A stretch of DNA of 64,000 nt from Antedon bifida (lineage: Eukaryota; Echinodermata; Crinoidea; Comatulida; Antedonidae). Where the stretch lies: positions 17,131,001 through 17,195,000 of the forward strand of contig OY727099.1 in the NCBI GenBank assembly GCA_963402885.1. The letters run 5' to 3'. Of this stretch, positions 8,761 through 64,000 are shown piece after piece (position 1 is the first letter of the stretch; each line of letters opens with the position of its first letter). The translations under genes and the position numbers were made by a program. The notes under the pieces were generated by a model. That model made no database searches and was not told where the DNA came from. It saw only the letters and a list, made by a program, of their open reading frames with translations.

Positions 8761-10451
8761 AGATTTTATGGCTCCATAAGATGATGTTAACACAATATAT
8801 GTGCATAAATTGCAATATTATAGCATAATTATTGAATTTTAAAAAGTGGACATTTTTGCCATTTTTCGAAAAAATTCCTTTGTTCCCCCGCAGTGAAATT
8901 TTCGAAAAATGGCAAAATTTAGACAATTTTATTTTTTTACACAACTAGTTACTATGGCTCTATAAGATGATGTTAACACAATATATGTGTATAAATGGCA
9001 ATATTATAGCATAATTATCGAATTTTAAAAAGTGGAAATTTAGGACATTTTTCGAAAAAATTCCTTCAGTCCCCCCGCAGTGAAATTTTTGAAAAAAATT
9101 GCCAAATTTCGACCCTTTTATTTTTTGACATAACTAGTTATTATGGCTCTATAAGATGATGTTATCAAAATAAATGTGCATAAATGACAATATTATAGCA
9201 TAGTTATGGAATTTTAAAAAGTGGACATTTTTGCAATTTTTCGAAAAAATTCCTTTGGTCCCCTGCAGTGAAATTTTCGAAAAATTGCAAAATTTAGACC
9301 TTTTTTTTTTTTACACAACTAGTTACTATGGCTCTATAAGATGATGTTACAACAATATATGTGCATAAATGGCAATATTATAGCATAATTATCGAATTTT
9401 AAAAAGTGGAAATTTTGGACATTTTATGGAAAAATTTCGTCGGTCCCCCGCAGTGAAATTTTCGAAAAATGGCAAAATTTAGAAATTTTTATTTTTTTAC
9501 ACAACTAGTTACTATGGCTCTATAAGATGATGTTACAACAATATATGTGCATAAATGGCAATATTATAGCATAATTATCGAATTTTAAAAAGTGGAAATT
9601 TTGGACATTTTATGGAAAAATTTCTTCGGTCGCCCGTAGTGAAATTTTCGAAAAATGTTCAAATTATGACCCTTTTATTTTTTGACATAACTAGTTTTTA
9701 TGGCTCCATAAGATGATGTTAACACAATATATGTGCATAAATTGCAATATTATAGCATAATTATCGAATTTTAAAAAGTGAATAATTTTGCCATTTTTCG
9801 AAAAAATTCCTATGGACCCCGCAGTGAAATTTTCGAAAAATGGCAAAATTTAGACCCTTTTAATTTTTTAGACAACTAGTTACTAAGGCTCTATAAGATG
9901 ATGTTAACACAATATATGTGCATAAATAGCAATATTATAGCATGATTATTGATGTTTAAAAAGTTGAAATTTTTGACATTTTATGGACAAATTTCTTCGG
10001 TCCCCCGCAGTGAATTTTTCGAAAAATGTTCAAATTATGACCCTTTTATTTTTTGACATAACTAGTTTTTATGGCTCCATAAGATGATGTTAACACAATA
10101 TATGTGCATAAATTGCAATATTATAGCATAATTATTGAATTTTAAAAATTGGACATTTTTGCCATTTTTCGAAAAAATTCCTTTGGTCCCCCGCAGTGAA
10201 ATTTTCGAAAAATGGTCAAATTTAGACCTTTTTATTTTTTTACACAACTAGTTACTATGGCTCTATAAGATGATGTGACAACAATATATGTGCATAAATG
10301 GCAATATTATAACATAATTATTGAAGTTAAAAAAGTGGAAATTGTTGACATTTTTTGAAAAATTTCCTTCGGTCCCCCGCAGTGAAATTTTTTTTAAATT
10401 GTCAAATTCTGACACTTTTATTTTTCATTTTACTGAAATATTCTCCCGCAC

Positions 10452-12069
10452 ATAAACCAGGAAGTCGAGATAAACTGTGTAATGAAATAGTAAACAATCG
10501 TAAGTAGAAAATATCATTGTATTCTTTACTTATTTTTTGGATATAATTCATTTTTTTAGAAAAAGAACGAACTAGAATATAGTCCATCATTATTATATAA
10601 ACAAAATAATACAAGTTTTGTTAATATAGCCTGGTTCAGTTTTTAGTAAAACTCGCATATTTTGCAACCCCTTTATACATTGTTATTGTTATCGGCGAGA
10701 AAACGGTTTGGCGATAGGCTTAGAACGTGCGTTGACGCCCGCGATGACCGTGACAGTAATGTGGGCCTAGAATGAAGCTAGGCCCAAACATAGAAAATTC
10801 GTAATAGTTAAACCTTTTATTACCCTAATCCTAAATTTAATCATTATAACTGTTACCAAATAATTAATGGCATGTGTTTATAATAATAATTATTGCTTTC
10901 CTGGTGCATTTTTAGGCTAGCTGGTGTGACTGAGTGACAGTCCTACAGCTTAGGCTAGGCCTTAATATTAATACATTTGTATAATAATGGTTTAATATTT
11001 TGGCTATTAGCTCTCTTGTTTGGATTTGTTTGGACACAAAACTGAAGTACTTTAGATTTAAAAATTGATTTATTTTTAAAGGAAAGTACAGTTGCATCTA
11101 TTGTTTTTTAGACCATGGCAGTGAAAAAAAAGAAGCAAAACAATATCGCACAGCGTTGTTAGGCCATACCTGGTAGACATTGAATAAAACAGGGTAGGTA
11201 AATAATCATAACCACCTCTTTAGAAAGTTTAATACACACTCCAAACAATGAAATGTGTGTTTGTACTTCCATATTAAAGAACAATGTTAGTATAAAATAA
11301 CTGTCAAAACAAACAATTGTTACAGTAATTTATAAATATACCTCTTTTTCTTTATTAAATATTTCCTCAATCAACTATTTTTCCGTATAGAATTTCAAAA
11401 TTGTTTATCCTATTTATATGCATAATAAAGCAAACCTTTGGCTGGAACTTATTTTCCTATGAATTATCCATATATTATCATTATCTGCTACAAGAAATAA
11501 TGAACATTTTTAAAATATAATAATTTTGATGCTCATTTTTTATGCAGATTGAAATTTATTTGGTTGACCAATATTGTTTAATCTCAGGTGATCATCTAGC
11601 AGACTTTGAGAAAATCAGAAGCTGCAGCACATCGACATGCTACAATGATTAAAATCCAGTCTTTAGAAGAGAATCTTGAGCATTTAAGAAATTAACTCTC
11701 AGTGTCACTTGTGACAAAACAGCATAGTAAGATTGCAGAAACTGGCCACAGAATAAATCTAAAAGAACAAGAGGTCAAAGACTTGGTCAGTCCTACATTA
11801 TACACCTTTAAAATTATGTCTAAAACATGCAATACTATAAAAATTAATGCCATATTTCTTTTATATATTTTATATAGCGAACTAGTATGAACCAAGAGAT
11901 TTGAAACTCTATGTACAAAAATGGACGAGGTATTTAGAAAAATAAATTCCTCGACAGCAGTACCACGGAAGAGAATTTTGCGGGAAATCATGAAGTCACA
12001 TTTGACGTTTATTTCACCTGAGATCCAGCATGAAGTAACTAGGCCGGTAACTAAGTGCAGAAAAGTTTG
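10452..12069 (+). pseudogene. RAG1-like transposase pseudogene, copy 1
   Basis: Exon remnants can be paired one by one with the intact gene. The exon 1 remnant has lost its start codon (ATAAACC for ATGAAACC) and carries stops but keeps the GTAAGT donor. The exon 7 remnant keeps the motif encoding YSCIY and ends at a GTAGGT donor. The exon 9 remnant encodes INLKEQEVKDL, against INLKDQEVKDL in the intact protein, with an upstream in-frame stop. At about 11990 the exon 10 sequence passes directly into the last part of exon 12 (encoding SPEIQHEV) across an ATG microhomology, removing intron 10, exon 11 and the catalytic glutamate region. It cannot make transposase. The 62-codon plus-strand frame at 11702-11890 is the surviving exon 9 and is not an independent gene. 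Confidence 0.87.
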
Positions 12070-12454
12070 AGGAAATAGGAATAGTTTGCTATTTCTCAGT
12101 TAATTACAGTACAGTATTGCATATATTATGTACAGTATACTGTATGAATAGTATAGTAGTATTTTTTGTTGTTATTGCTAGAACAATGATTTTGTAAATA
12201 AATGGTATATGAATTGTAATTGAATTGAATTTTTTGGAAGTTATTTTATTTTAATTTGGTTTATATATTATTGATTGATAACGGAAATTGATGTTATTTA
12301 CTGATTTAGATTGTGATTGCATATCAAAATAATAAATAATATACAATACAAATATGAAAGAAATATGCATTTATAATTAAATATCTAATGTCACAGTACT
12401 CTATAGCTTCTTTCTATTAATATATTACAGATCTGACCTGCTGATGATGTAGCC

Positions 12455-12600
12455 TAGCCTATATATAGTATAGGCCTAGCTAGGCCTGTAGCCTGGACTA
12501 CTCTGTACTCCCCTCCCAATATGAATGATTATTAAAATAGCTTAGGCCTAGGCTAGGCCTAATTTTTAATTAGGACCAGGAACAAGTATTAATCAGCTTT
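12455..12600. repeat. AGGCCTAG-rich cluster in copy 1
   Basis: Short overlapping repeats of TAGGCCTAG/TAGCCTAGCC. Similar clusters occur in the other inserted elements but not in either satellite. The rest of 12070-12940 is AT-rich sequence in which I recognise no coding or RNA gene. Confidence 0.6.
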
Positions 12601-13187
12601 ATAACAGGTCTACTGTCACTCAGGCCCCCGAATAGACATGTTTACGTGTTAAAAACAGCCATTAGTCTTACACAGCTGGTTTTAACCACGCAAAGGGGCC
12701 TGGGCATAGCCTATTATAAGCTAGCATAGGAAAAAATCCAGCCTGGCTATATGAATACGAACCTTCTTAAAACATTCAAGGATAACTAAAGTATCCAACT
12801 AAATCAAAGAATTCAACAGAAAAAATTATTTTTAAACTGATATGGAAAACAACATTTATACCTACTTTTTAAATGTATCACTTGAGAAAAAAACTGGCGT
12901 TGGGTGTACAATTTTGGTTAACTTTCAATTACATTACCTCTTAAAATCCACGTGATAAAACGACGACAACATGTTTTTCACCTTCACCCAGGGTTGTTCT
13001 AATGAATATTCATTATTTTTCTGACTTTCGCGGTCTTTATTTGTTTTTATTGGCTATTGAAATACAGTCCTTTTATGCTTGATTGCTTCCGGGTTCCTCG
13101 TGTGGTTTGTATACAATATGTTTTCTGAATCACTACTCCATAAAACGCTATGAAACGTTGGGGGCGCTACACTTAATTCATATTTCT

Positions 13188-13199
13188 GGAACAGCTGTG
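13188..13199. repeat. Terminal inverted repeat (gene-3' end) of copy 1
   Basis: Reads CACAGCTGTTCC on the minus strand, identical to both termini of the complete element. The AAGTG and GCGCC blocks begin at positions 26 and 33 from the end, exactly as at the gene-3' terminus of the complete element. Satellite A resumes at 13200. Confidence 0.85.
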
Positions 13200-22502: not shown

Positions 22503-22723
22503 TATTCCTTATATACAAAACCGCCAATTTTCAATTAAGATTACATCATACATTGTACATTTCTATTCAACAAAATTGTCAGAACTTTCTATTATTTAAA
22601 TGTCTAAGATAGTCAGGTCTCGGGTCCATTCTACAGTCACCACAGATTGACTTTTTCATCACAAAATTTCTGAAATTATAAAATATATTAATGTGTAAAT
22701 TAAGTATTTTTAGCAAAATACAG

Positions 22724-22966
22724 GCATATTGCACCAGGTGTATTACAGCCTAAGCTGCATATGCTTGAGCACCATGCTATTGCATTCATGAGAGAATGGA
22801 AGGTGGTCTCTGAGCAAGGCAGGGAGCTAATACATGCCAAACTCAACCGTCACAAAACAGCAGTGTGGATTAGAGTCAAACTTAGACTCATCTGACTTTC
22901 ACATCTCCAATGATACAAAATGAAATAATAAAACCCAACAAATGCAAGAAAGCCAACGAAGAATGA
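22724..22966 (+). pseudogene. Last exon of RAG1-like transposase, copy 2 (decayed)
   Basis: Directly after an ACAG acceptor the plus strand reads APGVLQPKLHMLEHHAIAFM, close to residues 829-848 of the intact protein (APGVIQPKLHMLEHHAIPFM). It continues with REWKVVSEQGRELIHAKLNR, so the H-x4-H pair and the SEQ catalytic glutamate motif are still readable, with four codons lost just before SEQ. Frame is lost after about TAVW, yet the tail still aligns to a TGA at 22964-22966 matching the intact stop. The beginning of the exon (FSKEYRR region) is missing. It is non-functional as a transposase. Confidence 0.86.
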
Positions 22967-24398
22967 TTCATTAACATTAATGATCATAAAATATTGTACA
23001 TTTTTAAATGTTAAAGGAATATTGCATTGTATTGATTTCCTTTTAACAATGCCTAATGATAATGAATATGTAAACGTAATACTACAGTATGTCTATATTT
23101 CAATTACTAACTAATTACTATTGATTGATAGTACTACTGCTGTACTAAAATATTAAAATAATATAGGCCTAGCCTACCCAGCCAGTGGTAGTGATTGATT
23201 GTTAATATTACAAATTAATAGCATGGTAAACACAATTTAATATTTGCTACTTCTTGAACAGCAAAATAATCTTACCTATCTAGATGGTAGGTATGGTCCA
23301 AATCTGCCTAGTCACTTAAGGTTGTTGCTCTATATATGTACCTACAATAGTATAACATTAATAATTATTATAACAATTTTATAAAAATAACTTAACTTAT
23401 TAAATTTAATATGATTGCATACTAATTTTAATATGCAGTGATGAGCAAAACCGAATGTTAATATGATGCTTGTCATTATTTATATTGTAATTATTACATA
23501 CAGGGTAGGCCTATAATATTCCCTATGTCATTGCATACATAGGGTATATATAATCCTCATAATATTAAATTTACAGTTTTTGTAATGAATACTGTAAATT
23601 TATTAAAACTAAAATTAATTATAATGATTAAATAATAATAATAATATATAGGCCTAGGCGTAGATCCTGGGCCTAATTTTAATTAGGTAGCCTACTAATA
23701 CCTACTAGGCTAGTAGGCTAGCCTACTCAAGGCCAGGCTAACTAAGCCGGAAAGCTGCTTCTCTGTAGTAGGCTGCTAGAGAGCACAGGTCTAGCTAGGG
23801 CGTAGGCCTAGTATTAAAATAAAAATAGGGCCTATAATATTGGTATATGCCTACCCTACCCAGCCAGGCCTAAATAATTAAAATAATGTAACATTTCCAA
23901 ACTCATTTGGGTCAGCTGTCACATGAAAGGCAGTGTTGCAACTAGAGTAGACACAATCCTAAGCCTAAAAATGACACAATTTGAAACGGCCATAGCTCAA
24001 AAATTCAACCATCACCTCTCGACCATTACTATGTTATAACATTCACAGATAACTAAATTATCATGCAGTACCAACGAATTAGAGTGAAAATTACATTTTT
24101 TAAAGATACGGACAAACAAACATGTACCTAATTTGGAAATATCACTCACGTGCGTTAATTGGTCTATGCTTGTAATTTATCCACCCTTCCATTAATTTTC
24201 AGCGTTACATTCCTTGTTAAAAACAAAAACAACAACTTGCTTTTTTCATCCAGGGACTCTTTAATGAATATTCATATTTTTAGCGACCCTTTATTTTTTT
24301 ATCTCATTCTCATTGGCTGTTTAAAACATGTCTTTAAAAGACGATTGACTCCACTCTGCACACGTGGATTTGTAAGTAATTGTTTATGTATTGTTACT

Positions 24399-24437
24399 CC
24401 TCAACGTTACAAGTCGTATCGACTTGTAACGTTGAGG
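24399..24437. repeat. Perfect 18-bp hairpin near the terminus of copy 2
   Basis: Arms CCTCAACGTTACAAGTCG and its exact reverse complement are separated by TAT. It lies about 36 bp inside the terminal repeat. The other two copies have a weaker palindrome at the same place, both containing CAACGTT, so a subterminal palindrome seems to be a shared feature. Confidence 0.85.
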
Positions 24438-24473
24438 GCGCATGACTTAATTCGTATGTTTGAAACAGCTGTG

Positions 24474-32024: not shown

Positions 32025-33791
32025 GTGACCTGCTCTGGCAAAGTGAAACATAAGTCGAAAATTTAAATTTTTCAGATTTGTATTCTATCTGGTAGGAAAT
32101 GTTATATCCTTTACAATGATACCAAACTTAATATTTAACATGAAGGGGATCCTGAGATATTGTACGTTAAGTCGAAGCATGTATAAAGAAATATACAAAT
32201 AACAGTTTTGAGAAAATCATGATTGAATGTCAATGTTATTTTATAAAACAACAAAACAAATTAATATTTGTTAATCTAATAGTGTATACTTTCTAAGTAT
32301 CACACATTCACAAAATATGATACAATGAAATGTTTTTTGATAGGATATTGATTACAGTGACAATGCATACAAAAAAATATTTCCACATTCTATGTTAAGT
32401 ACATACTTGTGTTTCTTTTAAGCACTTACTTAAAATGGTAAAAATGGGGATAAATTAATGTTTTTACACTAAAAAAACTGTATCTTTCTTTAAAAATTAA
32501 TTAAATGTATACAATAAATTAAGTTATATAACATTAAATACCATTTCTTGAACTACTGGATTTAAGTACGTTCTTAAAAGTGTACTTAAATAATTTAAAT
32601 TTTAGTTGTGTATAGTGCCTGATGATTAGATAACAAATACAACTTAAATAACAATATGCGATTGCTTTAATCAATTAAATAATGGATATGTTAAGCACAT
32701 ACTAATGTATTAAGTTTGTTTTAAGCATTTACTTAAAATTGTGTAATGTTTATGAAATTATGTTGGTGTATTAGTGCTTAATAATCGCCTACAATAACAT
32801 TAATTAATACAATACTTATGTAAAAGCAATAAATATGGTAGGCCTATGTGGTATGTAGGCAAATAACAGTGCCACCTAGGCCTAGCCTACCTATCCTAGC
32901 TAGGCCTATTTGCCCTGCTACTAACCTACCTAGCTAGCCTACCTACGCCTAGCTAGTCTAGTCTAGACCTGCTAGCTAGGCTAGGCCTACCCTAGGGCTA
33001 GGCTAGGACAGGTAGGCCTGGCCCTAGAAGGACCCAGCCTGGAGTCCAAAAGGCTACTTAGTAGGCCTAGCTAGGCTAGTCATTACACTGGCTGTAATAA
33101 TTTAATATCATAGGTCCTTTGCTACTTTCATTATGTTGGTATTTTTTAGTCATTGTATTTGGCCTAGGACTAGGCCTAGGCTAGATCCATCGATTATCCT
33201 TAATCTGAATTGTTTACAATCTCCTCTCCGCGTAGAAAGTAAACAGGTCAAAGGTCATTTTAAGGATAAGCCAATTACAGTACTGTATTTCTACTACACG
33301 CTAGCCATTACGTGGCGTATCCTTGACAACGGATTTCTGTTGTTTATAATTCACGTCAGAGAAGCTTTTTACCTCCTCTAATTCCCGCTGAAGAAGCCAA
33401 AAATATTGAAAACCACTTGAAATACCCACTGAATATGGTTTATGAATATTTAAATTTTCAGACTCTACCATGTTTCTAAAGGTAGCTATACAAATATTTT
33501 TATAAACTGCACAGTTTTCTAACAGTGTTTCATGCACTTTATTTCATTTTTTGCAACAAAATGAAATCAAGACAAAAAAGGTACTCATTAAAATCACTTA
33601 TTTAGCCCTTTTATAAACTTAATTCACACAAAATGAAACTTGATCTTGATTCTTAAATAGTTGTAGATTCCAAAAAGGGGAAAACCCTATTTTCACCAAG
33701 ATAGTGATTTTTAACGTATATAGTACTTCTATAGGTCAATACACTGAATAAAGATCAGCGAGTTATGTTTCACTATGCCAGAGCAGGTCAC
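32025..33791. mobile_element. Non-autonomous DNA element with 29-bp terminal inverted repeats and AAAT duplication
   Basis: The termini are inverted copies beginning GTGACCTGCTCTGGCA and matching at 28 of 29 positions (32025-32053 against 33763-33791). AAAT lies on both sides (32021-32024 and 33792-33795) inside a satellite monomer whose uninterrupted form is CATAAATGGC/CATAAATAGC, so AAAT is the likely 4-bp target duplication. The interior is AT-rich with recurring ACTTAAAAT and TTAAGCA motifs (about 32400-32770), an AGGCCTAG cluster, and about 700 bp of unrecognised sequence. Two short overlapping frames at 33133-33537 resemble nothing I know, and no transposase is visible. The family is undetermined. 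Confidence 0.86.
32838..33080. repeat. AGGCCTAG-rich cluster in the 1.77-kb element
   Basis: Dense overlapping TAGGCCTAG, CTAGCTAGG and CCTACCTAG repeats, the largest such cluster in the window. It sits within an insertion and has no counterpart in the satellites. Confidence 0.75.
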
Positions 33792-45555: not shown

Positions 45556-47505
45556 ACTTAATGGCAAATAAATGTGCATAAATGACATAATTATCGAATT
45601 TTAAAAAGTGGACATTTTTGCCATTTTTCGAAGTAATTCCTATTTCCTCCACACTTTAAATTTTCGACCCTTTTATTTTTTAACATAAATAGTTACTATG
45701 GCTCTATAAGATGATGTTACCAAAATATATGTGCATTAATGGCAATATTATAGCATAATTATTGAAGTTTAAATAGTGAAAATTTTGGACATTTTTTGAA
45801 CAATTCCTTGGGTCTCCTGCCGTAAAATTTTCGAAAAATAGAAAAAATGTCGACCCATTTATTTTTTAACATAACTAGTTACTCTGGTTCTATAAGATGA
45901 TATTAACACATTATATGTGCATAAATGGTAATATTATAGCATAATTATCGAATTTTAAAAAGTGGACATTTTTTGTCATTTTTCGAAAAAAATTCCTTCA
46001 GTGAAATTTTCTAAAAATGTCAAAATTTCGACCATTTTATTTGTTTACATAACTAGTTACTATGGCTCTATAAGATGATGTTAACACAATATATATGCAT
46101 AAATGAAAATATAATAGCATAATTATTGGATTTTAAAAAGTGAACATTTTGCAATTTTTCGAAAAATTCCTTCGGTCCCCTGCAGTGAAATTTTCGAAAA
46201 ATGGCCAAATTCTTACTCTTTTATTTTTTGACATAACTAGTTTTTATGTCTCCATAAGATGATGTTAACACAATATATGTGCATAAATTGCAATATTATA
46301 GCATAATTATTGAATTTTAAAAAGAGGAAAATTTGGCGATTTTTTGAAAAAAATCCTTTGGTCCCGGCCGTAAAATTTTCGTTAAATGGCCAAAATTCGA
46401 CCCTTTTATTTTTTGTAATAACTAGTTACTTTGGCTCTATAAGATGATGTTAACACAATATATGTACATAAATGGCAATATTATAGCATAATTATCGAAT
46501 TTTAAAAAGCGGAAATTTTTGCCCTTTTTGTAAAAAATTACTTTCGTTCCCCGCAGTGTAATTTTCAAAAAAATGGCCAAATTTCGACCATTTCATTTTT
46601 TGACATAACTAGTTACTATGGCTCTATAAGATGATGTTAACACAATATATGTGCATAAATAGCAATATTAAAATATAATTATTGAATTTTAAAAAGTGAA
46701 AATTTTTGCCATTTTTCAAAACAATTCCTTAGTTCTCCTGCCCTAATTTTTTCAAAAAATGGCAAAATTGCGACCCTTTATTTTTTTGACATTACAAGTT
46801 ACTATGGCTCTATAAGATGATGTTTACACAATATATGTGCATAAATGGCACATTATAGCATAATTATTGAATATTAAAAAGTTGAAATTTTGGTCACCCG
46901 CAGTAAAATTTTCGAAAAAATGGCCAAATTCAGACCCATTTATTTTTTAGCATAACTAGTTATTCTGGCTCTATAAGATGATGTTAACACAATATGTACA
47001 TAAATGACAATATTATAGCATAATTATCGAAAGTTAAAAAGTGGAAATTTTTGCCATTTTTCTAAAAAAATTATTTGGTCCCCCGCAGTAGTGTAATTTT
47101 CAAAAAATTGTCAAATTTCGACCCTTTTATTTTTTGACATAACTAGTTACTTCGGCTCTATAAGATGATGTTAAAACAATATATGTGCATAAATTGCAAT
47201 ATTATAACATAATTATTGAAGTTTAAAAAGTGGAAATTTTGGAGATTTTTCGAAAAAATTCCTTCTGTCCCCCGCAGTGTAATTTTCGAAAAATGGCCAA
47301 ATTTGGACCTTTTTAATTTTTGACATAACTAGTTATTATGGCTCTATAAGATGATGTTAACAAAATAAATGTGCATAAATGACAATATTATAACATAATT
47401 ATCGAATTTTAAAAAGTGAACATTTCTGCCATTTTTCGAAGTAATTCCTTTTTTCCCCGCATTGAAATTTTCGAAAATTGGTAAATTTTCGACCCTTTTA
47501 TTTTT

Positions 47506-50500: not shown

Positions 50501-53500
50501 ATGGTCTAAAACGTCTCCAAATCCGTTTTGAAGCTATTCTAAGCACTTTGGTTATTTTATGTTAACAAGTTTTTTCGAAATGCACAAAATGGTCTTAAAC
50601 GTCTCCAAATGCGATTTGAAGCTATTTTGTGCACTTTGATGTTTTGTGTAAAAAGTTTATTCGAAATGCACAAAATGGTCTAAAACGTCTCCAAATACGA
50701 TATTAAGCTATTGTATGCACTTTGATGTTTTTGTGTGAACAGTTTTATCGAAATGCTCAAAATGGTCTAAAACGGTTTCAAATGTGATTTTAAGCACTTT
50801 GATATTTTTGTGTAATCAAGTTTCATCGAAATGCACAAAATGGTCTAAAACGTCTCCAAATACGATATTAAGCTATTGTATGCACTTTGATGTTTTTGTG
50901 TGAACAGTTTTATCGAAATGCTCAAAATGGTCTAAAACGGTTTCAAATGTGATTTTAAGCTATTTTGTGCACTTTGAAGTTTTGTGTGAAATGTTTCATC
51001 GAAATGCACAAAATGGTCTAAAACGTCTCCAAATACGATATTAAGCTATTGTATGCACTTTGATGTTTTTGTGTGAAAAGTTTCATCGAAATGCACAAAA
51101 TGGTCTAAAACGTCTACAAATCCGATTTGAAGCTATTTTGTGCACTTTGATGTTTTGTGTCAAAAGTTTTATAGAAATGCTCAAAATGTTCTAAAACGGT
51201 TTTAAATGTGATTTTAAGCACTTTGATGTTTTTGTGTAACCAAGTTTCATCGATATGCACAAAATGGTCTAAAACGTCTCCAAATGCGATTTGAAGCTAT
51301 TTTGTGCACTTTGATGTTTTGTGTGAAAAGTTTTATCGAAATGCTCAAAATGGTCTAAAACGGTTTCAAATGTGATTTTTAGCACTTTGATGTTTTTGTT
51401 TAATCAAGTTTCATCGAAATGCACAAAATGGTCTAAAACGCCTCAAATGCGATTTGAAGCTATTTTGTGCACGTTGAAGTTTTGTGCGAAAAGTTTCATC
51501 GAAATGCACAAACTGGTCTAAAACGTCTCCAAATACGATATTAAGCTATTGTATGCACTTTCATGTTTTTGTGTGAAAAGTTTTATCGAAATGCTCAAAA
51601 TGGTCTAAAACGGTTTCAAATGTGATTTTAAGCACTTTGAAATTTTTGTGTAATCAAGTTTCATCGAAATGCACAAAATGGTCTAAAACGTCTCCAAATG
51701 CGATTTGAAACTATTTTGTGCACTTTGATGTTTTGTGTGAAAAGTTTCATCGAAATGCACAAAATTGTCTAAAACGTCTCCAAATACGATATTAAGCTAT
51801 TGTATGCACTTTGTTGTTTTTGTGTGAAAAGTTTCATCGAAATGCACAAAATGGTCTAAAACGTCTCCAAACACGATATTAAGCTATTGTATGGACTTTG
51901 ATGTTTTTGTGTGAAAATTTCACCGAAATGCACAAAATGGTCTAAAACGTCTCCAAATCATTTTTGAAGCTATTCTAAGCACTTTGGTGTTTTTATGTTA
52001 ACAATTTTTTTCAAAATGCACAAAATGGTCTAAAAGGTCTCCAAATGCGATTTGAAGCTATTTTGTGCACTTTAATGATTTGTGTGAAAAGTTTTATAGA
52101 AAAGCTGAAAATGGTTTTAAACGGTTTCAAATGTGATTTTAAGCACTTTGATGTTCTTGGGTAACCAAGTTTCATCGAAATGCACAAAATGGTCTAATTC
52201 GTTTCCAAATGCGATTTGAAGCTATTTTGTGCACTTTGATGTTTTGTGTGAAATGTTTTATCGAAATGCTCAAATTGGTCTAAAACGGTTTCAAATGTGA
52301 TTTTAAGCACTTTGATGTTTTTGTGTAATCAAGTTTCAACGAAATGCACAAATTAGTCTAAAACGTCTCCAAATGCGATATTAAGCTATTGTATGCACTT
52401 TGATGTTTTTGTGTGAAAAGTTTTATCGAAATGCACAAAATGGTCTAAAACGTCTCCAAATGCGATTTGAAGCTATTCTAAGCACTTTGGTGTTTATATG
52501 TTAACAAGTTTTTTTCGAAATGCTCAAAATGGTCTAAAACGGTTTCTAATGTGATTTTAAGCACTTTGATGTTTTTGTGTAATCAAGTTTTATCGAAATG
52601 CACAAAATGGTCTAAAACGTCTCCAAATGCGATTTGAAGCTATTTTGTGCACTTTGATGTTTTGTGTAAAAAGTTTCATCGAAATGCACAAAATGGTCTA
52701 AAACGTCTCCGAATTCGAATTTAAGCTATTTTGTGCACTTTGATGTTTTTGTGTGAAAAGTTTCACCGAAACGTCTCTAAATTCGATATTAAGCTATTGT
52801 ATGCACTTTGTTGTTTTTGTGTGAAAAGTTTCATCGAAATGCACAAAATGGTCTAAAACGTCTCCAAATACGATATTAAGCTATTGTATGCACTTTGATG
52901 TTTTTGTGTGAAAAGTTTCATCGAAATGCACAAAATGGCCTAAAACGTCTCCAAATACGATATTAAGCTATTGTATGCACTTTGTTGTTTTTGTGTGAAA
53001 AGTTTCATCGAAATGCACAAAATGGTCTAAAACGTTTCCAAATGCGATTTGAAGCTATTCTAAGCACTTTGGTGTTTTGTGTGAAAAGTTTTATCGAAAT
53101 GTTCAAAATGGTCTAAAACGGTTTCAAATGTGATTTTAAGCACTTTGATGTTTTTGGGTAACCAAGTTTCACCAAAATGCACAAAATGGTCTAAAACGTT
53201 TCCAAATGCGATTTGAAGCTATTTTGTGCACTTTGATGTTTTGTGTGAAAGTTTCATCGAAATGCACAAAATTGTCTAAAACGGTTTCAAATGTGATTTT
53301 AAGCTATTTTGTGCACTTTGATGTTTTGTGTGAAAAGTTTCATCGAAATGCTCAAAATGGTCTAAAACGTCTCAAAATGCGATTTTAAGCTATTCTTAGC
53401 ACTTTGGTGTTTTTATGTTAACAAGTTTTTTCGAAATGCTCAAAATGGTCTAAAACGGTTTTAAATGTGATTTTAAGCACTTTGATGTTTTTGTGTAATC

Positions 53501-54911
53501 AAGTTTCAACGAAATGCACAAAATGGTCTAAAACGTTTCCAAATGCGATTTGAAGCTTTTCTAAGCACTTTGGTGTTTTGTGTGAAAAGTTTTATCGAAA
53601 TGCTCAAAATGGTCTAAAACGGTTTCAAATGTGATTTTAAGCACTTTGATGTTTTGGGTAACTAAGTTTCATCAAAATGCACAAAATGGTCTAAAACGTT
53701 TCCAAATGCGATTTGAAGCTATTTTGTGCACTTTGATGTTTTGTGTGAAAGTTTCATCGAACTGCATAAAATGGTCTAAAACGTCTCCAAATACGATATT
53801 AAGCTATTGTATGCACTTTGACGTTTTTGTGTGAAAAGTTTCATCGAAATGCACAAAATGGTCTAAAACGTCTCCAAATCCGTTTTGAAGCTATTCTAAG
53901 CACTTTGGTTTTTTTATGTTAACAAGTTTTTTCGAAATGCACAAAATGGTCTTAAACGTCTCCAAATGCGATTTGAAGCCATTTTGTGCACTTTGATGTT
54001 TTGTGTAAAAAGTTTATTCGAAATGCACAAAATGGTCTAAAACGTCTCCAAATGCGATTTGAAGCTATTTTGTGCACTTTGATGTTTTGTGTGAAAAGTT
54101 TTATCGAAATGCTCAAAATGGTCTAAAACGGTTTCAAATGTGATTTTTAGCACTTTGATGTTTTTGTTTAATCAAGTTTTATCGAAATGCACAAAATGGT
54201 CTAAAACGCCTCAAATGCGATTTGAAGCTATTTTGTGCACTTTGAAGTTTTGTGCGAAAAGTTTCATCGAAATACACAAACTGGTCTAAAACGTCTCCAA
54301 ATACGATATTAAGCTATTGTATGCGCTTTCATGTTTTTGTGTGAAAAGTTTTATCGAAATGCTCAAAATGGTCTAAAACGGTTTCAAATGTGATTTTAAG
54401 CACTTTGATATTTTTGTGTAATCAAGTTTCATCGAAATGCACAAAATGGTCTAAAACGTCTCCAAATGCGATTTGAAGCTATTTTGTGCACTTTGATGTT
54501 TTGTGTGAAAAGTTTCATCGAAATGCACAAAATTGTCTAAAACGTCTCCAAATACGATATTAAGCTATTGTATGCACTTTGTTATTTTTGTGTGAAAAGT
54601 TTCATCGAAATGCACAAAATGGTCTAAAACGTCTCCAAATACGATATTAAGCTATTGTATGCACTTTGATGTTTTTGTGTGAAAAGTTTTATCGAAATGC
54701 TCAAAATGGTCTAAAACGGTTTCAAATGTGATTTTAAGCACTTTGATATTTTTGTGTAATCAAGTTTCATCGAAATGCACAAAATGGTCTAAAACGTCTC
54801 CAAATGCGATTTGAAGCTATTTTGTGCACTTTGAAGTTTTGTGTGAAAGGTTTCATCGAAATGCACAAAATGGTCTAAAACGTCTCCAAATGCGATTTGA
54901 AGCTATTGTAT
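47506..54911. repeat. Satellite B, block 1 (about 87-bp monomer)
   Basis: Head-to-tail array of about 85 monomers: TTTGATGTTTTTGTGTGAAA, AGTTTCATCGAAATGCAC, AAAATGGTCTAAAACGTCTC, then CAAATACGATATTAAGC plus TATTGTATGCAC. Four types mix: the CGATATTAAGCTATTGTATG type, the GCGATTTGAAGCTATTTTGTG type, a shorter CGGTTTCAAATGTGATTTTAAG type, and a TTCTAAGCACTTTGGTG type with TTAACAAGTTTTTTCG. Block duplications are visible, for example 50461 onward against 53819 onward (about 3358 bp apart). GTAT at 54908-54911 is the left target duplication of the transposon. Frames of 60-67 codons here are artefacts of an 87-bp (29-codon) period. Confidence 0.96.
54908..54911. repeat. Target site duplication GTAT, left copy
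   Basis: GTAT precedes the left terminal repeat and recurs at 63345-63348 after the right one. Uninterrupted satellite B monomers have a single GTAT at this place. Extending by one base on either side breaks the match, so the duplication is 4 bp. Confidence 0.85.
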
Positions 54912-54948
54912 CACAGCTGTTCCACCTATACAAATTAAGTCTGGCGCC
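54912..54948. promoter_or_regulatory. Left (gene-3') terminus with bipartite inverted repeat, 13-bp spacer
   Basis: CACAGCTGTTCC occupies terminal positions 1-12, AAGTC positions 26-30 (54937-54941) and GCGCC positions 33-37 (54944-54948). The two decayed copies have their boxes at exactly the same positions. This is the presumed transposase recognition and cleavage end; the terminal CAC agrees with the invariant start of RAG recombination-signal heptamers. Confidence 0.75.
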
Positions 54949-55165
54949 ACCAACGTTTAAACGACGCACTGTGGAGTTAAGAATGCGTTAACAGTTGTAT
55001 ACAAACCACGTGTAAAGAATAAACCCGGTCAGGCATAGAATGGCTGTAATTAAACAGCCAATAAAAATAAAGTAAAGATCAAGCTGGTTTAAAAAATATG
55101 AATATTCATTACAACAACTCTCGACGAAGCTGGAAATGTGTTGATATGGTCTTCTCACGTGTGAT
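54949..55165. promoter_or_regulatory. Conserved subterminal motif block (palindromes, CCAAT, two CACGTG)
   Basis: Motifs retained in spite of divergence in the decayed copies: a CAACGTT palindrome region (CGTTTAAACG, 54954-54963), an E-box CACGTG (55007-55012), CCAAT (55058-55062), the palindrome TGAATATTCA (55099-55108) and a second CACGTG (55156-55161). Copies 1 and 2 keep CCAAT and TGAATATTCA exactly and the E-boxes in part. The block lies downstream of the transposase gene, so it may be an end-binding enhancer or an outward or antisense promoter; no transcript start can be read from sequence alone. Confidence 0.55.
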
Positions 55166-55547
55166 TGAGGACAAAAAGTTCAACGAAAAGTCAAGCCAAA
55201 AATGCCAAGTCTACAACATTACAAACAATCTTGAAGAGATTATAAAGTAGGTGTAACTTTGTTTGCCCGTATATATTAAAACTGATTTTTTAAGTAGTAG
55301 TCATTGATATGGTTTGATAGTTAGTTATCTTGTGAGTGTTTTAAAAGGGTAGATAAGGAGAGTTGCTGGCTGAGATTTGTATTATGGCCGTTTGCCAATA
55401 TGAATATTTTCGGTCTAAGGCTAGCCATTATAGTGGGCCTAGATAATCCAGTTGCAGTGTATTTCAAGCGCAAAGTACTCTGTATCATCACCCAAGCAAG
55501 TTTAAAATCACCGGAACATAATGATGTTTTACCTAGCCTAATAAGCT

Positions 55548-55650
55548 CAGGCCTAGGCTAGGCCTAGCCTATCATTTTATTTTACATAGGCCTAGCTAGG
55601 GCCTAGCCTAGCTAGGCCTAGTCTTAGTAGTAGGCCTATTTATTTGGTTC
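55548..55650. repeat. AGGCCTAG-rich cluster in the complete element
   Basis: Overlapping AGGCCTAG and CTAGCTAGG repeats like those in the decayed copies. The surrounding 55170-55780 sequence is AT-rich and shows no gene. Confidence 0.7.
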
Positions 55651-55782
55651 GGTATTATAGCCTAGCTAGCTACCTAAATACATTTCTTCCATGCAATGTT
55701 AACATAATACACAAATAATACTTAAATAGGCCTAATGACTGGTGTACCTAATTTAATACTAATAGAATAAGAATAATATAAG

Positions 55783-58020
55783 ATACAAAGTGCAATTAAA
55801 AAAACAAACAACTATTTGATTCTTGTTTGATACTGTAACTATCCAAGATAATATTAACCATATTATTTAGGATGTTAATAATAATATTATATATATTTTA
55901 TTCATTATGACAGGTATTACATTTTTTTACATCAACTTCTGACATTATCATTGTCATGTTCAATTTTCTAGAAGTGCATGCTGTTGATACAGTACAATTT
56001 ATCATTATTAATGATAATTAACATTTTTGTTATTATTATTTTCCACAGTATCAATTCGCAGCCATTATGTAATAACAAGTTAAAAGTTAACAGCTAACAT
56101 AACGGATAACAGAAAAATGAACATTAGCGATTAATTATTAAGTACTGTATTGTAATGTAACATGAAAATTACATTTTAAATTTTCCAATTACAACATTTT
56201 TTTTTGCATTCATATTAATTTATTGTTTATTTTCTTTACTCATCAAAAAACACTGCATTAACCGACATCTCATCAAGGACAGCCCATGTCAGAGATGAAA
56301 GAAAATGGTCAACTGCAACATTAACATAACAGTATTAATCGTATTATCACTGAATGGTTAGTATGTATATTAATTATAAAGTGCAATTAATAAAACAAAC
56401 AACTATTTGATTCTTGTCATGAATATTTGTACAAATATATAATAATACTGTAACTATCCAAGATAATATTAACCATATTATTTAGGATGTTAATAATAAT
56501 ATTATATATATTTTTTTATTATTATGACAGGTATTACATTTTTTTACATCAACTTCTAATTCATTGTCATGTTCAATTTTCTAGAAGTGCATGCTGTTGA
56601 TACAGTACAATTTATCATTAATGATAATTAACATTTTTGTTATTATTATTTTCTACAGTATCAATTCGCTATGATGATCATGTAATAACAAATTAAATGT
56701 TAACAGCTAACGTGAACATTAGCGATTAAAAATGCACTGCATTAACCGACATCTCATCAAGGACAGCCCATGTCAGAGATGAAAGAAAATGGTCAACTGC
56801 AACATTAACATAACAGTATTAATCGTATTATCACTGAATGGTTAGTATGTATATTAATTATAAAGTGCAATTAAAAAACAAACTACTATTTGATTCTTGT
56901 CATGAATATTTGTACAAATATATAATAATACTGTAACTATCCAAGATAATATTAACCATATTATTTAGGATGTTAATAATAATATTATATATATTTTTTT
57001 ATTATTATGACAGGTATTACATTTTTTTACATCAACTTCTAATTCATTGTCATGTTCAATTTTCTAGAAGTGCATGCTGTTGATACAGTACAATTTATCA
57101 TTAATGATAATTAACATTTTTGTTATTATTATTTTCTACAGTATCAATTCGCTATGATGATCATGTAATAACAAATTAAATGTTAACAGCTAACGTGAAC
57201 ATTAGCGATTAAAAATGCACTGCATTAACCGACATCTCATCAAGGACAGCCCATGTCAGAGATGAAAGAAAATGGTCAACTGCAACGTTAACATAACAGT
57301 ATTAATCGTATTATCACTGAATGGTTAGTATGTATATTAATTATAAAGTGCAATTAAAAAACAAACTACTATTTGATTCTTGTCATGAATATTTGTACAA
57401 ATATATAATAATACTGTAACTATCCAAGATAATATTAACCATATTATTTAGGATGTTAATAATAATATTATATATATTTTTTTATTATTATGACAGGTAT
57501 TACATTTTTTTACATCAACTTCTAATTCATTGTCATGTTCAATTTTCTAGAAGTGCATGCTGTTGATACAGTACAATTTATCATTAATGATAATTAACAT
57601 TTTTGTTATTATTATTTTCTACAGTATCAATTCGCTATGATGATCATGTAATAACAAATTAAATGTTAACAGCTAACGTGAACATTAGCGATTAAAAAAG
57701 CACTGCATTAACCGACATCTCATCAAGGACAGCCCATGTCAGAGATGAAAGAAAATGGTCAACTGCAACATTAACATAACAGTATTAATCGTATTATCAC
57801 TGAATGGTTAGTATGTATATTAATTATAAAGTGCAATTAAAAAACAAACTACTATTTGATTCTTGTCATGAATGTTTGTACAAATATATAATAATACTGT
57901 AACTATCCAAGATAATATTAACCATATTATTTAGGGTGTTACAGTAATAATATATACTGTATATTCTAATATTCTATTATTATGACAGGTATTACATTTT
58001 TTTACATTCAACTTCTAATT
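55783..58020. repeat. 483-bp tandem array in the 3' region of the transposon (about 4.5 copies)
   Basis: The landmark AGCCCATGTCAGAGATGAAA begins at 56281, 56764, 57248 and 57731, a spacing of 483-484 bp. The unit starts near AAGTGCAATTAAAAAAC (55783, then about 56379, 56864, 57346 and 57829). The first unit is about 110 bp longer and more diverged; the later ones are nearly identical, suggesting recent expansion. The array lies immediately beyond the stop codon of the transposase gene (58037). It contains no frame longer than about a dozen codons and nothing resembling RAG2. Confidence 0.9.
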
Positions 58021-58036
58021 CATTGTCATACACACA

Positions 58037-61000
58037 TCATTCTTCATCTTTCCTGCATTTCTTAGGTTGGGTAACTTCATGCTGAATTTCAGGTGAAGTG
58101 AACACTAAATGTGATGTCATCATCGACATCAATTGGTCCAAATTGCTGCGGATCCCATAAACAGCCCTTTTACGTCGATTGAATTCCGCGTGTATGAGCT
58201 CTCCTCCTTGTTCTGATAAAAGACCTATTCCGACTCCCCACTCCCTCATGAATGGAATGGCATGATGTTCCAGCATGTGGAGCTTGGGTTGTATGACCCC
58301 TGGTGCTATTCGTCTGTACTCTTTTGAGAACTTGTTTATTGCATTTTCTGTATTGAAGTTTAATTAGTTATAAATGAAAATTTGTTACGATAAATTCGTG
58401 TACAATTTTGTAATATAAATTGCCAATAATAAAGCATTTTTGTTAGCTTACCATATCCATCAATTTCTGCATCATCAATACATCTAGTATGGTTTATGCA
58501 GGCATGTACTTTACTGAATGTGTTAAACACAGGTGTAAATGATTGACGTATCTTCTGTATCTTGATCTTCAACAGATTCTTGCAGTGTTCAGGGCAGTGA
58601 TTTAGTTGTTGCTTGAGTGTAACTTCAACTCCATCCATAAGTTTGTCTATTATATTAAACTGAAACAACAACAAAATGGCAACATCAGCAAGTGTTTTCA
58701 AAACAATATTGATTATCTGATAAAACTCCTAGAAAGTAGGAAGCCTTTTACCAAGGTAAGTGAAACTTAGAAACACAAGCACATCAGGAAAGATAAAAAT
58801 CACTGGCATATTCACATTCTTTCAATATCAGTTATATAAAAATTGAACTTGACTAATTCCAAATAATGATTGAAGGAGCATTGTATTTTGAAATTATTAT
58901 TATTAATCAATCTTCTATGACAATGTAAACACTTACTTTACAGGCTCTATATACATGATTTCCAACAAAACTCTTTCCATGGTATTGTTGGCGAGGAATT
59001 TTGTTTTTCCGTAGAATTTCATCCATTTGCGTCGCAAGAGGTCCAGTTCCAAATTTTAGGTCGCTGTTTAATGAAGTACGCTATTAGGAAATATAAAATG
59101 TGTATTAAAAGCGTTTAATTGAATCCATTTTAATTAACTACATTGTATTTATATTTACCAAGTCTTTAACTTCTTGATCTTTTAGATTGATCTGGTGTCC
59201 AAGCTGTGAAATGGTATCCGCATTATATTCACGTTGAACAAGTGACAATGAGAGTTGGTTGCGCAACTCATCAATTTCTGCATCCAAAGACTTAATTTTT
59301 TCTGCACAAGAGTTTCGATTGGATGTGGCTTCAGCTACTTTTTTGTCAAAGTCTGGTAAAAATTCACCTGGAATAATAGATTTTAAATTTATTTAGTCAA
59401 GCATTTACAAAGGAAGATGGCAACAGATTTAAATTTCTGGTTTAAAAAAAAGCAATTCACCCTCATATATTTGATTGGATGCATCCTGTCTCATATTAAA
59501 AATGATGAGGTCCAGGTTATGTATGTCCTTTTCCAGCATGTCATACATTTTTTTAAATAGACCAAGCGATATGTGCAAAGCTGGAATGGATACCTGGAAA
59601 ATATAATTTTAATACTTGGAATTAATTACACTGACAAACAAAGGTATGCATGCTATATTATGATTGTTATTTTTTTGTTTTAATTTTTAAACAATTTGCA
59701 TGTCCACCATGTCAACACTTTGCACATGCATCAAATAGGTTGATGCTTCAACCAGCTAAAAAATGGATTTATTATACTGTACATGTTGTGTCGATTAGAG
59801 GACATGCAAATCAAAACTCACTGTTGCAAAATGTCATAACTAAAATTCTATTTAACTGTTCAACTAACGACTAATTCGCTTACCCTGTTTAACTCAATGT
59901 TGACCATGTAAGGTCTAATTACACTATTTGACACCAGCTTGCTTTTCTTTATGTCTTGGCCATGGTCTACAAATGACTTAAAATCGCGATTATACGATTT
60001 CAGGCATCTGCTGCTCTGAGGTGCCCTGTTTTGCTTTATATCATCCTGGTTGCAATAGCAGTAGATGCAACTGTATTTGCCTATAGGAAAAACACAGCTA
60101 AAACATCTTAGTTAAAGATGCATTTTAATAAAAAAATAAAAAGGCAATACTTAATATTTTTAGCAGGGATTTAAAGTATAGTTTTTTAAAATTCTAAATT
60201 ATACAGCACATGAAAATCCCATAACAAAAAATTGTCCAAGGAAGTTTCAACAATACAATTAAATATTTATTAACTCGCAATTATTTACTCACCATTGGGG
60301 CCAACCAGTCCATATATTCGGGATAAAAAGTCGTAGTCCCCAAAACAAAAGAGCCTGATGTTATGAGTTCTGCAATATGAGTAAATTATAACCATAACAT
60401 ACACTAGGTTTTATAACAATTATACCATCACCTATATATTTTGGATTAATTGTTCTGCTATACTGTACATTACCTCTTTGTTTTGGGTGAGACCCACTGA
60501 CTTCCATCTAATTCCATGACCTCATCGATCACTAAGTTTAGTCCCTTTTCTATGTTGATGGTAAGGTCTGGGGCTTGAAATATCAGAATCACGATGATGT
60601 TCTGCAGGGCGTTCGGCTTTTCCAAACCACAAATTTGCAATTCGAATTTGGTGGTGTCACCACCCTTATCACCACCAAATTTGATAAAGATCTCGTCATT
60701 AGGCCTATTGAAGGTGAGTTCATCTGACCTAAAATAGCATATAATTATAAAAATGTAGTGTAGAAAGCAAGACATTTTTGTAATTTATGTATTTTATCCT
60801 TTCAAAACTAAATGTGTTTTTTATTTTATGGATTTAAATAAATACAATTGAAAAATTAATCCTATGAAAAACCTACATGTCATATTTATTCAAGTAGTCG
60901 TATACAAGTTCTTTAATCTTTGTTAGTCGTACGACTGCTACCTCTTCTAGCACCAGCCCTCCGATAGAGGTAGCACAGTCTCTCTTTAGAAACATGTATT

Positions 61001-63052
61001 CTAAGGATTTTCTTAGGTAATCGCCTACAATCTCTTCTTGACATATTCGCATTTTGCGCTCTGATGCAAATAAACCTGGACAGAATCTGAAAAAGAAAAT
61101 ACTGCATTTACTTACTGACTGGGTTATCATTAGTTTGGATAACAATTATTATAACTATTATAATTTACATACCTCCGCAGCGCCCGTTGTTGACTCCAGT
61201 TTATTCTGCATTTGTTCATCACTGCTAGGCATTTTTTGGCATCCATTTGGGGATAAACGAAATTGATTGGAATGGCTGGTGGTGGTGAGGCTATTGTCTC
61301 GGTGACAAGTTTTAGTGGCTGAATTTGAAAAACATAAATATATTCATCATTACTATTAATTATAATATAAAATGATATAATATATACTGTATTTGCCAGC
61401 CTGTATATTTGTATAGACTTTATTACTGTATATAAAGAGTTTTTTTTTCATTTACTACAGTACTGTATACATGTTATATTTTTATATGTACATTGATTAA
61501 AATAAATTTATGAATTACAATTTATTAATGTTTTTTAATGTACATCTTTGTGTTTATTTATATCAAGTTGGCTGTAAAACTTACTCGTCCTTGAGTTGTG
61601 AGGGACATTTTCCCATCAACTATTTCTTTTCTCACAAGGCCATGTGCCATGTTCTTTAGTTCTGCTGGATACACATGTACTTGATTTGTTGTCGCACTTA
61701 TTTCTTTAACAGCATTCACAATCGTTGCAAATGCTTGTTCCTTTATAGATTTACAAAAGTGGCTTTCTGTTTCAGCTAGCACCAGCTTCAGATTGCAGTT
61801 AGTGCATTTTAGAGGCACCTTTAAAATGGACTGTTCCACAATTGGTGGAATTGACTGAATGTTGTGAGGGGTCAATACGTTGTCACAACTGAAGCATTCA
61901 ATTTCTCCTCTTCCAACTGCCTTAAAGACTTTCTGTATGCAGAAATTGCAATAGAAATGTTGACACGGTGTCTGTATACTGTCAACAGAAAGTAGATTGC
62001 CACAAACATTGCATTCGTATATATTATCAGCATCATCAAAAATACGATATTGGCGATTTAAAGCGAGTTCGCTTTGTGCCGATACAAAATTTCCCCTAAT
62101 GTTACGGGAATCAGGAAACTTGTATTGTTTCAACCGTCTTCCTGGTCTCAATTGCTGCCTCAATAAGTAGCAAGCAAGGCATTTCGATGTATGTAATTTA
62201 GCTAATTGAAAAAATGGTGATATGGTCTGTCCTTTAATAACTTTTGAGTGACATGTTGAACAGATCCATTCAAAATGTATGTCATTTATTTGTAGTTGAA
62301 TTTTCATATTCTCACTTTTATACTTTTTTTCATTTTCTTTAATTTTTTTACCACAGCAATGACAGATGGAGTCTATAGCCCTCTCATGAAACTGCTCCTC
62401 CCTGTAAAAAAATTATATCATCAATCTATGAATTTAAAAAAAAAACAATTGGGCGCAACAGTGCAATGTTGGGTTTCGTATTATTAGTTATAACTAATTA
62501 GTTATATGCTATGCCTATAATATACTATCATGCCTACACTGTCAGACTGGTCTAGGCATATAGGCTAGTAGTAGGGCCTAGTATTATTAATATTTAATTA
62601 TATTTATAATATTCTAAAATCTAAATAATAATTTTATTTTGTCAACAATAAATAATGCCAAACTGTAGGCCTAGAAAAAAAAACAAATAACTATGTTTTA
62701 ATAATAGTAAATATCAAATTTTCTAGCGTTGGGCCTAGCGTCATCCTAGGCCCCCACCTATACCGCTCTTGTCGCGGTCATCACCTAGGCCTGAGCGCTC
62801 CGCTGAAATCGCCGATACGCTGATCGTATAAAAAAGGGTTGCACATTACGGGATTTTACCAGGTTTCTAACCAGCAACTCTATTTAAACCTTTGCTCAAT
62901 TGAATCATATACAAATTTTGTTTTACATAATATTTGCTGTTTATCTACAAAAAATTACATTTAAACAAAAACAGTAAAATAATACGATCATTTTTGTTCA
63001 CTTACGTTTGTTTACTATTTGTAGCGCTAGCCATAGTATTTCCTGGTTTCAT
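58037..63052 (-). CDS. RAG1-like transposase, 917 residues, 12 exons
   Basis: Exons in transcript order: 63052-63006, 62401-61585, 61318-61173, 61086-60877, 60728-60474, 60369-60293, 60080-59884, 59593-59461, 59367-59159, 59080-58937, 58659-58452, 58347-58037. All introns are GT/AG, phases agree throughout, and the sum is 2754 nt with no internal stop. Residues 29-93 hold a RAG1-type zinc region (C29/C32, C63/C66, H86, C90/C93). A C3HC4 RING follows (C146, C149, C162, H164, C167, C170, C185, C188), then a zinc knuckle (C215, C218, H230 or C232). The DDE core has FGGDKGGD (D427), CFGDYD (D503), YSCIYC (C522/C525), IPALHISLGLFKKM (587-599), a coiled-coil-like stretch (630-697), HMLEHH (H838/H843) and LLSEQGGE (E860). 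These correspond in order to RAG1 D600, D708, C727/C730, the ALHCDIG segment, H937/H942 and E962. Predicted role: cut-and-paste transposition, with the RING a probable ubiquitin ligase. N-RAG-TP, Chapaev or RAG1L/Transib assignment is open. The start codon is supported by an aligned exon 1 remnant in copy 1. Confidence 0.92.
61585..62401 (-). other. Exon 2: RAG1-type zinc region plus RING module
   Basis: This 817-nt exon encodes residues 16-288 and holds the whole RAG1 N-terminal-like module. ICHCCG, FEWICSTC and LHTSKCLAC match in order and spacing the RAG1 elements ICRICG, TEFCHNCW and WHPHTPSCDIC. The RING spacing is C-x2-C-x12-C-x-H-x2-C-x2-C-x14-C-x2-C, followed by KCTNC...HFC in the place of RAG1 zinc finger A. 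The acceptor is TTTTTACAG and the donor GTAAGT (61584-61579). A residual short frame runs a few codons past the donor and is not used. Confidence 0.9.
62402..63005 (-). other. Intron 1, with a segment conserved in copy 1
   Basis: This 604-nt intron separates the tiny first exon from the zinc/RING exon. Around 62700-62870 it shares GTGCAACCC...TTTATA, GATGACCG and GCTAGGCCCAA with copy 1 (10650-10790), even though most coding exons of copy 1 are lost. It also holds an AGGCCTAG cluster near 62560-62580. Confidence 0.7.
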
Positions 63053-63081
63053 GTACTGTACTAAATGTGATTAAAATCTGC

Positions 63082-63101
63082 TTTATAAGATTTTTTTATA
63101 T
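63082..63101 (-). promoter_or_regulatory. Possible TATA elements upstream of the transposase start
   Basis: On the minus strand, ATATAAAAAAATCTTATAAAG lies about 30-50 bp before the start codon at 63052, giving two TATA-like boxes inside the transposon 5' end. AT-rich sequence makes chance matches likely, so this is tentative. Confidence 0.4.
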
Positions 63102-63218
63102 TTTAAGCGTGGTCAAACAATAACATGTTTATGTTTTAACCAAATGAATTTAATATTGAACAAAAACAGTATGTTAAGAATTATTAAACTAATAAGTACT
63201 ACAAGGTGAAAAAAATAG

Positions 63219-63250
63219 CTATCGATCTCGCGAAAATACGATCGATAGCG
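63219..63250. repeat. Hairpin in the 5' terminal region of the transposon
   Basis: Perfect 10-bp arms GCTATCGATC and GATCGATAGC enclose a 12-base loop, about 95 bp inside the gene-5' terminus. The decayed copies have lost this end, so conservation cannot be judged. Confidence 0.7.
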
Positions 63251-63298
63251 AAAATCATAATTTGCGCCGTTGCTCGAGCGTCGTCTGCTAATATTGAG

Positions 63299-63344
63299 GG
63301 CGCTTGACTTTTATTAATATTTATTACATGATGGAACAGCTGTG
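63299..63344. promoter_or_regulatory. Right (gene-5') terminus with bipartite inverted repeat, 22-bp spacer
   Basis: Read inward from 63344 on the minus strand: CACAGCTGTTCC at positions 1-12, AAGTC at 35-39 (63306-63310) and GCGCC at 42-46 (63299-63303). Box order and box-to-box distance equal those of the left end, but the spacer after the terminal 12-mer is 9 bp longer. GTAT at 63345-63348 is the right target duplication. Confidence 0.72.
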
Positions 63345-64000
63345 GTATGCACTTTGATGTTTTTGTGTGAAAAGTTTCATCGAAATGCACAAAATGGTCT
63401 CAAACGTCTCCAAATCCGTTTTGAAGCTATTCTTATCACTTTGGTGTTTTTTTGTTAACAAGTTTTTTCAAAATGCACAAAATGGTCTAAAACGTCTCCA
63501 AATGCGATTTGAAGCTATTTTGTGTGAAAAGTTTTATCGAAATGCTCAAAATGGTCTAAAACGATTTCAAATGTGATTTTAAGCACTTTGATGTTTTTGT
63601 GTAATCAAGTTTCATCGAAATGCACAAAATGGTCTAAAACGTCTCCAAATGCGATTTGAAGCTATTTTGTGCACTTTGATGTTTTGTGTGAAAAGTTTCA
63701 TCGAAATGCACAAAATTGTCTAAAACGTCTCCTAATACGATATTAAGCTATTGTATGCACTTTGATGTTTTTGTGTGAAAAGTTTCACCGAAATGCACAA
63801 AATGGTCTAAAACGTCTCCAAATCCTTTTTGAAGCTATTCTAAGCACTTTGGTGTTTTTATGTTAACAATTTTTTTCGAAATGCACAAAATGGTCTAAAA
63901 GGTCCTCAAATGCGATTTGAAGCTATTTTGTGCACTTTAATGTTTTTTGTGAAAAGTTTTATAGAAATGCTGAAAATGGTTTTAAACGGTTTCAAATGTG
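63345..64000. repeat. Satellite B, block 2
   Basis: The array resumes with the second half of the interrupted monomer (GTATGCACTTTGATG) and runs to the end of the window. The last 180 bp repeat, with few changes, a run of variants found near 51950-52140 (AGGTC in place of ACGTC, GCTGAAAATGGTTTTAAACGG), another sign of block duplication in satellite B. Confidence 0.95.

Follow-up and report, generated by a model that had tools for sequence, protein, structure and literature searches.

Here, analysis of a 64,000-nucleotide stretch of Antedon bifida DNA (hereafter the window) revealed an 8433-bp element that lies within a satellite array and is very probably a Chapaev-type cut-and-paste DNA transposon of an animal genome, autonomous in appearance. 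The element had previously been taken for an intact RAG1-like transposon, and the two assignments are weighed against each other below.

Most of the window is satellite DNA, with units of about 186 bp extending to approximately 47.5 kb and, from position 47502 onward, an 87-bp family, whose array the element interrupts (54912-63344). The inverted termini and 4-bp target duplication reported in the preliminary description were both confirmed. The two copies of the terminus, CACAGCTGTTCCA, are identical at 13/13 bp, and the element ends diverge beyond them, while comparison of the flanks at duplication lengths of 2 to 8 bp gave a match at 4 bp alone (GTAT). The 20-bp junction formed by joining the flanks minus one GTAT, AAGCTATTGTATGCACTTTG, is present in the window as 19 exact copies, plus two that carry a single mismatch (mean of 0.00 occurrences in 100 shuffles), and in a blastn search with the joined flanks (160 bp), 92 of the 95 satellite matches crossed the empty site with at least 20 bp on each side. 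Removal of the element together with one GTAT leaves ordinary satellite, and the element is a single clean insertion with the following boundaries:

54912..63344, minus strand (gene strand): whole transposon, delimited by its termini, the 4-bp duplication and the empty site
54912..54924, plus strand: terminal inverted repeat CACAGCTGTTCCA on the 3' side of the gene, from the terminus search
63332..63344, minus strand: terminal inverted repeat CACAGCTGTTCCA on the 5' side of the gene, from the terminus search
54908..54911, no strand: left copy of the target duplication GTAT, from flank comparison
63345..63348, no strand: right copy of the target duplication GTAT, from flank comparison
56251..58029, no strand: tandem array of a 483-bp unit (3.7 copies) within non-coding sequence of the element, from the repeat scan

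The 483-bp units show 98% matches and form a satellite-like array inside the transposon, with a diverged extra copy (about 85%) at 55776-56098. Elsewhere, the satellite contains an inserted palindrome of about 1.9 kb at approximately 14803-16691 (identified by eye), with long inverted ends near AGGCTAGTCAATCTAGC and internal tandem repeats of about 345 bp, resembling a non-autonomous fold-back element. Inside the long 186-bp array, a stretch at approximately 32200-33600 that is rich in TAGGCCTA-type sequence differs, by eye, from the satellite unit.

The gene carried by the element was predicted on the minus strand, where 12 exons separated by 11 GT-AG introns join into a single open frame without a stop. 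The predicted protein comprises 911 amino acids from ATG 63034, with the stop codon ending at 58037. An in-frame ATG at 63052, six codons upstream, gives 917 codons and accounts for both the earlier count of 917 and a constant residue shift of 6, so that D427, D503 and E860 of the 917-residue numbering are D421, D497 and E854 in the 911-residue numbering used here. The 12-exon, stop-free gene described before holds as a predicted frame from either start codon, with exons placed as follows:

63006..63034, minus strand: exon 1 from ATG 63034 (alternative ATG 63052), predicted, with the relic 1 donor in the same place by eye
61585..62401, minus strand: exon 2, N-terminal zinc region of putative Chapa type, RING and further zinc pair, from predicted splicing, Pfam and motifs
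61173..61318, minus strand: exon 3, from predicted splicing
60877..61086, minus strand: exon 4, part of the DUF1280 match, from predicted splicing
60474..60728, minus strand: exon 5, D421 and most of the DUF1280 match, from predicted splicing and Pfam
60293..60369, minus strand: exon 6, D497, from predicted splicing and motif
59884..60080, minus strand: exon 7, CxxC 516-519, from predicted splicing, motif and a relic 1 match
59461..59593, minus strand: exon 8, LH at 583, from predicted splicing and motif
59159..59367, minus strand: exon 9, from predicted splicing and a relic 1 match
58937..59080, minus strand: exon 10, from predicted splicing
58452..58659, minus strand: exon 11, from predicted splicing
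58037..58347, minus strand: exon 12 with the stop, H832-x4-H837 and E854, from predicted splicing, motif and matches to relic 1 and relic 2

Pfam searches with the spliced protein matched residues 373-474 to DUF1280 (PF06918) with an E-value of 6e-16 (59.2 bits against a cut-off of 25), and exon 5 alone matched the same model with an E-value of 5.7e-13. DUF1280 corresponds to the transposases of Chapaev elements, which are described from animals (PMC3985635). The core matches the Chapaev model, and no RAG1 Pfam model was listed up to an E-value of 10 in these searches. The Chapaev hallmarks given in PMC4079192 are a 3- to 4-bp duplication, CAC/GTG ends and a transposase with DDE, C(2)C, LH and H(4)H motifs. 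Here, CACAGCTGTTCCA provides 5'-CAC...GTG-3' inverted repeats at both ends, the duplicated GTAT with its empty site has the corresponding length, and the core motifs were located by pattern in the order D421, D497, CxxC at 516, LH at 583, H832-x4-H837 and E854. The aspartates and the glutamate are putative catalytic residues, with E854 being a purely motif-based assignment that has E858 and E863 near it.

Upstream of this core, the protein displays CxxC motifs at 23 and 57, H80-x3-C84-x2-C87, a RING at approximately 139-183 and a CxxC pair at 209, and the order described earlier (zinc region, RING, zinc pair, D, D, CxxC, HxxxxH, E) was thus recovered by pattern. The RING matched PF00097 with 21.9 bits for the whole protein (cut-off 21) and 24.1 bits for exon 2, while four further RING models scored below their own Pfam cut-offs with the whole protein. 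An AlphaFold model of exon 2 alone had a mean pLDDT of 34.8 and was discarded, and no PDB chain matched residues 11-133. Searches of viral_contigs with exon 2 and with residues 283-911 gave 7 and 20 pattern matches, respectively, none of which was confirmed as a relative.

This architecture has a published counterpart, since two Chapaev subgroups in which a RAG1-type zinc domain, 'Chapa', is followed by a RING were reported in 2015 (PMC4411706). As these are described there, the present element shares with them the CAC..GTG ends, the 4-bp duplication, the DUF1280 core with C(2)C-LH-H(4)H and the N-terminal zinc region followed by a RING; beside them, the present copy has 12 predicted exons and the 483-bp tandem repeat. 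The Chapaev3 elements Merrow, Garfield and Conan have the superfamily motifs and CAC ends in common with it, but are described with 3-bp TWA duplications and transposases of one or two exons (556 amino acids in Garfield), in contrast to the 4-bp duplication, 12 predicted exons and 911-917 amino acids found here (PMC4079192). The duplication, GTAT, does not fit the 3-bp TWA of the Chapaev3 subgroup. N-RAG-TP of Aplysia, as cited in PMC8355894, likewise has a region resembling the RAG1 N-terminus in a transposable element, but is described as consisting entirely of such sequence, whereas the present element adds a catalytic core.

Chapaev elements are already known as distant cousins of RAG1. 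RAG1 and DUF1280 have been placed in one clade (PMC3985635), and C(2)C and H(3-4)H motifs are described as common to RAG1, Transib, Chapaev and others (PMC12730594). The kinship with RAG1 proposed in the preliminary description stands in this wide sense. A narrower reading would make the element a RAG1-like (RAGL/TransibSU) transposon, directly related to the V(D)J recombinase, and several features resemble those described for RAGL, TransibSU, ProtoRAG and vertebrate RAG1 (PMC7204232, PMC4411706), namely a distantly similar DDE core, the C(2)C and H-H motifs, the CAC ends and a RING plus zinc finger that may be of the RAG1 type. In a PDB search, the segment from the RING through the next zinc finger (approximately residues 137-237) matched RAG1 chains with a best E-value of 2.2e-4 and others up to 2.4e-3, but eight TRAF6 or BRCA1 sequences outscored RAG1 over the RING region (best E-value of 1.2e-6). 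These were the only parts over which RAG1 chains were matched, and no sequence match to RAG1 was detectable for the catalytic core with Pfam or the PDB.

Pairwise alignments with mouse RAG1 further resolved this similarity. The score of the RING and zinc finger against residues 258-381 was reached by 0 of 1000 shuffles and, after cysteines and histidines were masked, by 24 of 1000, indicating that the zinc ligands carry most of the score. For the whole N-terminal part, the corresponding values were 0/1000 and, masked, 189/1000. The first zinc region follows, by eye, the mouse RAG1 order CxxC, CxxC, HTxxCxxC (RAG1 cysteines 110/113, 175/178 and 210/213; PMC3124419). With mouse RAG1 108-237, however, it aligned in another register, and 19 of 1000 shuffles attained the score; the corresponding values were 38/1000 for a mismatched control (the element's RING against mouse RAG1 108-237) and 985/1000 for the second control. 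Pairwise alignment did not show the first zinc region to be homologous to that of RAG1, the result being no better in kind than the 38/1000 control. Because of this outcome, we grade the assignment of the N-terminal zinc region to Chapa, which is based on motif order, as likely.

The features that set RAGL elements apart point away from the narrower reading. In RAGL elements, the RAG1L and RAG2L genes are described as convergent and the duplications as almost always 5 bp (PMC7204232), whereas here the flanks fail to match at 5 bp (TGTAT versus GTATG), the core matches DUF1280 and not a RAG1 profile, and no RAG2-like gene was seen. The last observation comes from a scan in which no Kelch domain was found in 10 side ORFs of 54-79 amino acids, out of 40 ORFs listed for 54000-64000, a scan that could miss a gene with short exons. 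Two other side-ORF matches, MGTA_C (E-value of 0.0031, 18.1 bits against a cut-off of 27) and Ogr_Delta (E-value of 0.1), fell below the Pfam cut-offs and were taken as chance. On the duplication length and the profile, with no RAG2-like gene seen in the 10 side ORFs, we rejected membership among the RAG1-like (RAGL) elements and consider it highly improbable that the element and the V(D)J recombinase are directly related. Its claimed direct bearing on the origin of V(D)J recombination is not new either, as the combination of a RAG1 N-terminal module with a catalytic core is already in print for Chapaev (PMC4411706).

The Chapaev-type gene could be compared with two decayed relatives in the window:

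10427..13199, plus strand: relic 1, with a perfect 13-bp terminus at 13187-13199, from terminus search, tblastn and codon comparison
22649..24473, plus strand: relic 2, with a terminus at 24461-24473 that has one mismatch in 13, from terminus search, tblastn and codon comparison

Both relics, which come from the same Chapaev family as the element, are inserted in the neighbouring 186-bp satellite, and each has only one recognisable terminus. They match several exons at the protein level (tblastn). Over 187 aligned codons, they differ from the gene at 51 first, 32 second and 103 third codon positions, with the third position the most changed in all five of the compared stretches, which were chosen by protein similarity (tblastn), a choice that favours conserved ones. 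Two short relic 1 tblastn rows (protein 512-528 and 719-731) and a satellite row (52032-52160) were excluded from this count. The pattern of codon differences establishes, at the level of sequence comparison, that the gene evolved under protein-level selection in the past of the family. Four splice sites of relic 1 also coincide by eye with those predicted for the gene, namely the exon 1 donor, both the acceptor and donor of exon 9, and the exon 10 acceptor. Together with the codon differences, these sites indicate that the predicted frame is more than a lucky reading.

An unbroken frame and past protein-level selection would also be expected of a host gene domesticated from a Chapaev transposase. 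Domesticated transposase copies usually lose their termini and target duplication. The present gene, in contrast, still lies between exact termini flanked by a target duplication inside a satellite array, with relatives bearing the same terminus nearby, and we therefore regard domestication as very improbable.

A different question is whether this copy could still move. It might be a dead but well-preserved Chapaev copy that no longer moves because it is silenced, lacks binding sites in its termini or carries a damaged residue; this possibility concerns activity and is compatible with the Chapaev explanation. The window contains a single full-length copy, located in satellite DNA, and both relatives have decayed and match the element at 63-67% over the end they share with it, thus giving no sign of recent movement. 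On the other side stand the 911 codons without a stop or frame break, the exact termini and the exact duplication. We put the chances that the copy is dead at about even.

By analogy with the family, a Chapaev transposase of this kind would bind the CAC-ended termini, and its DDE site, a pair of aspartates plus a glutamate brought together by an RNase H fold, would hold metal ions. The element would be excised by this active site and then joined to the target at a staggered cut, for which the length of the duplication indicates a stagger of 4 bp. The zinc parts probably aid DNA binding or dimerisation, and the RING may have ubiquitin-ligase activity.

The element adds a well-preserved member to a kind of transposon that has already been described, and provides no new link to the origin of antibody genes. 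Its ends are exact, its empty site is present, its predicted gene is unbroken and the exon model has the support of two decayed relatives, all of which makes it a clean specimen. It is consistent with, and does not alter, the published view that transposons distantly related to RAG1 already combined a zinc/RING N-terminal part with a catalytic core (PMC4411706). We consider it unlikely that this Chapaev lineage retains all of the ancestral parts (Chapa, RING, zinc finger and catalytic core) in a still mobile element. If that were true, it would be possible to test outside vertebrates what the RAG1-type N-terminal module contributes to transposition, and a mobile copy would be a convenient system in which to study how the zinc and RING parts function in this process.
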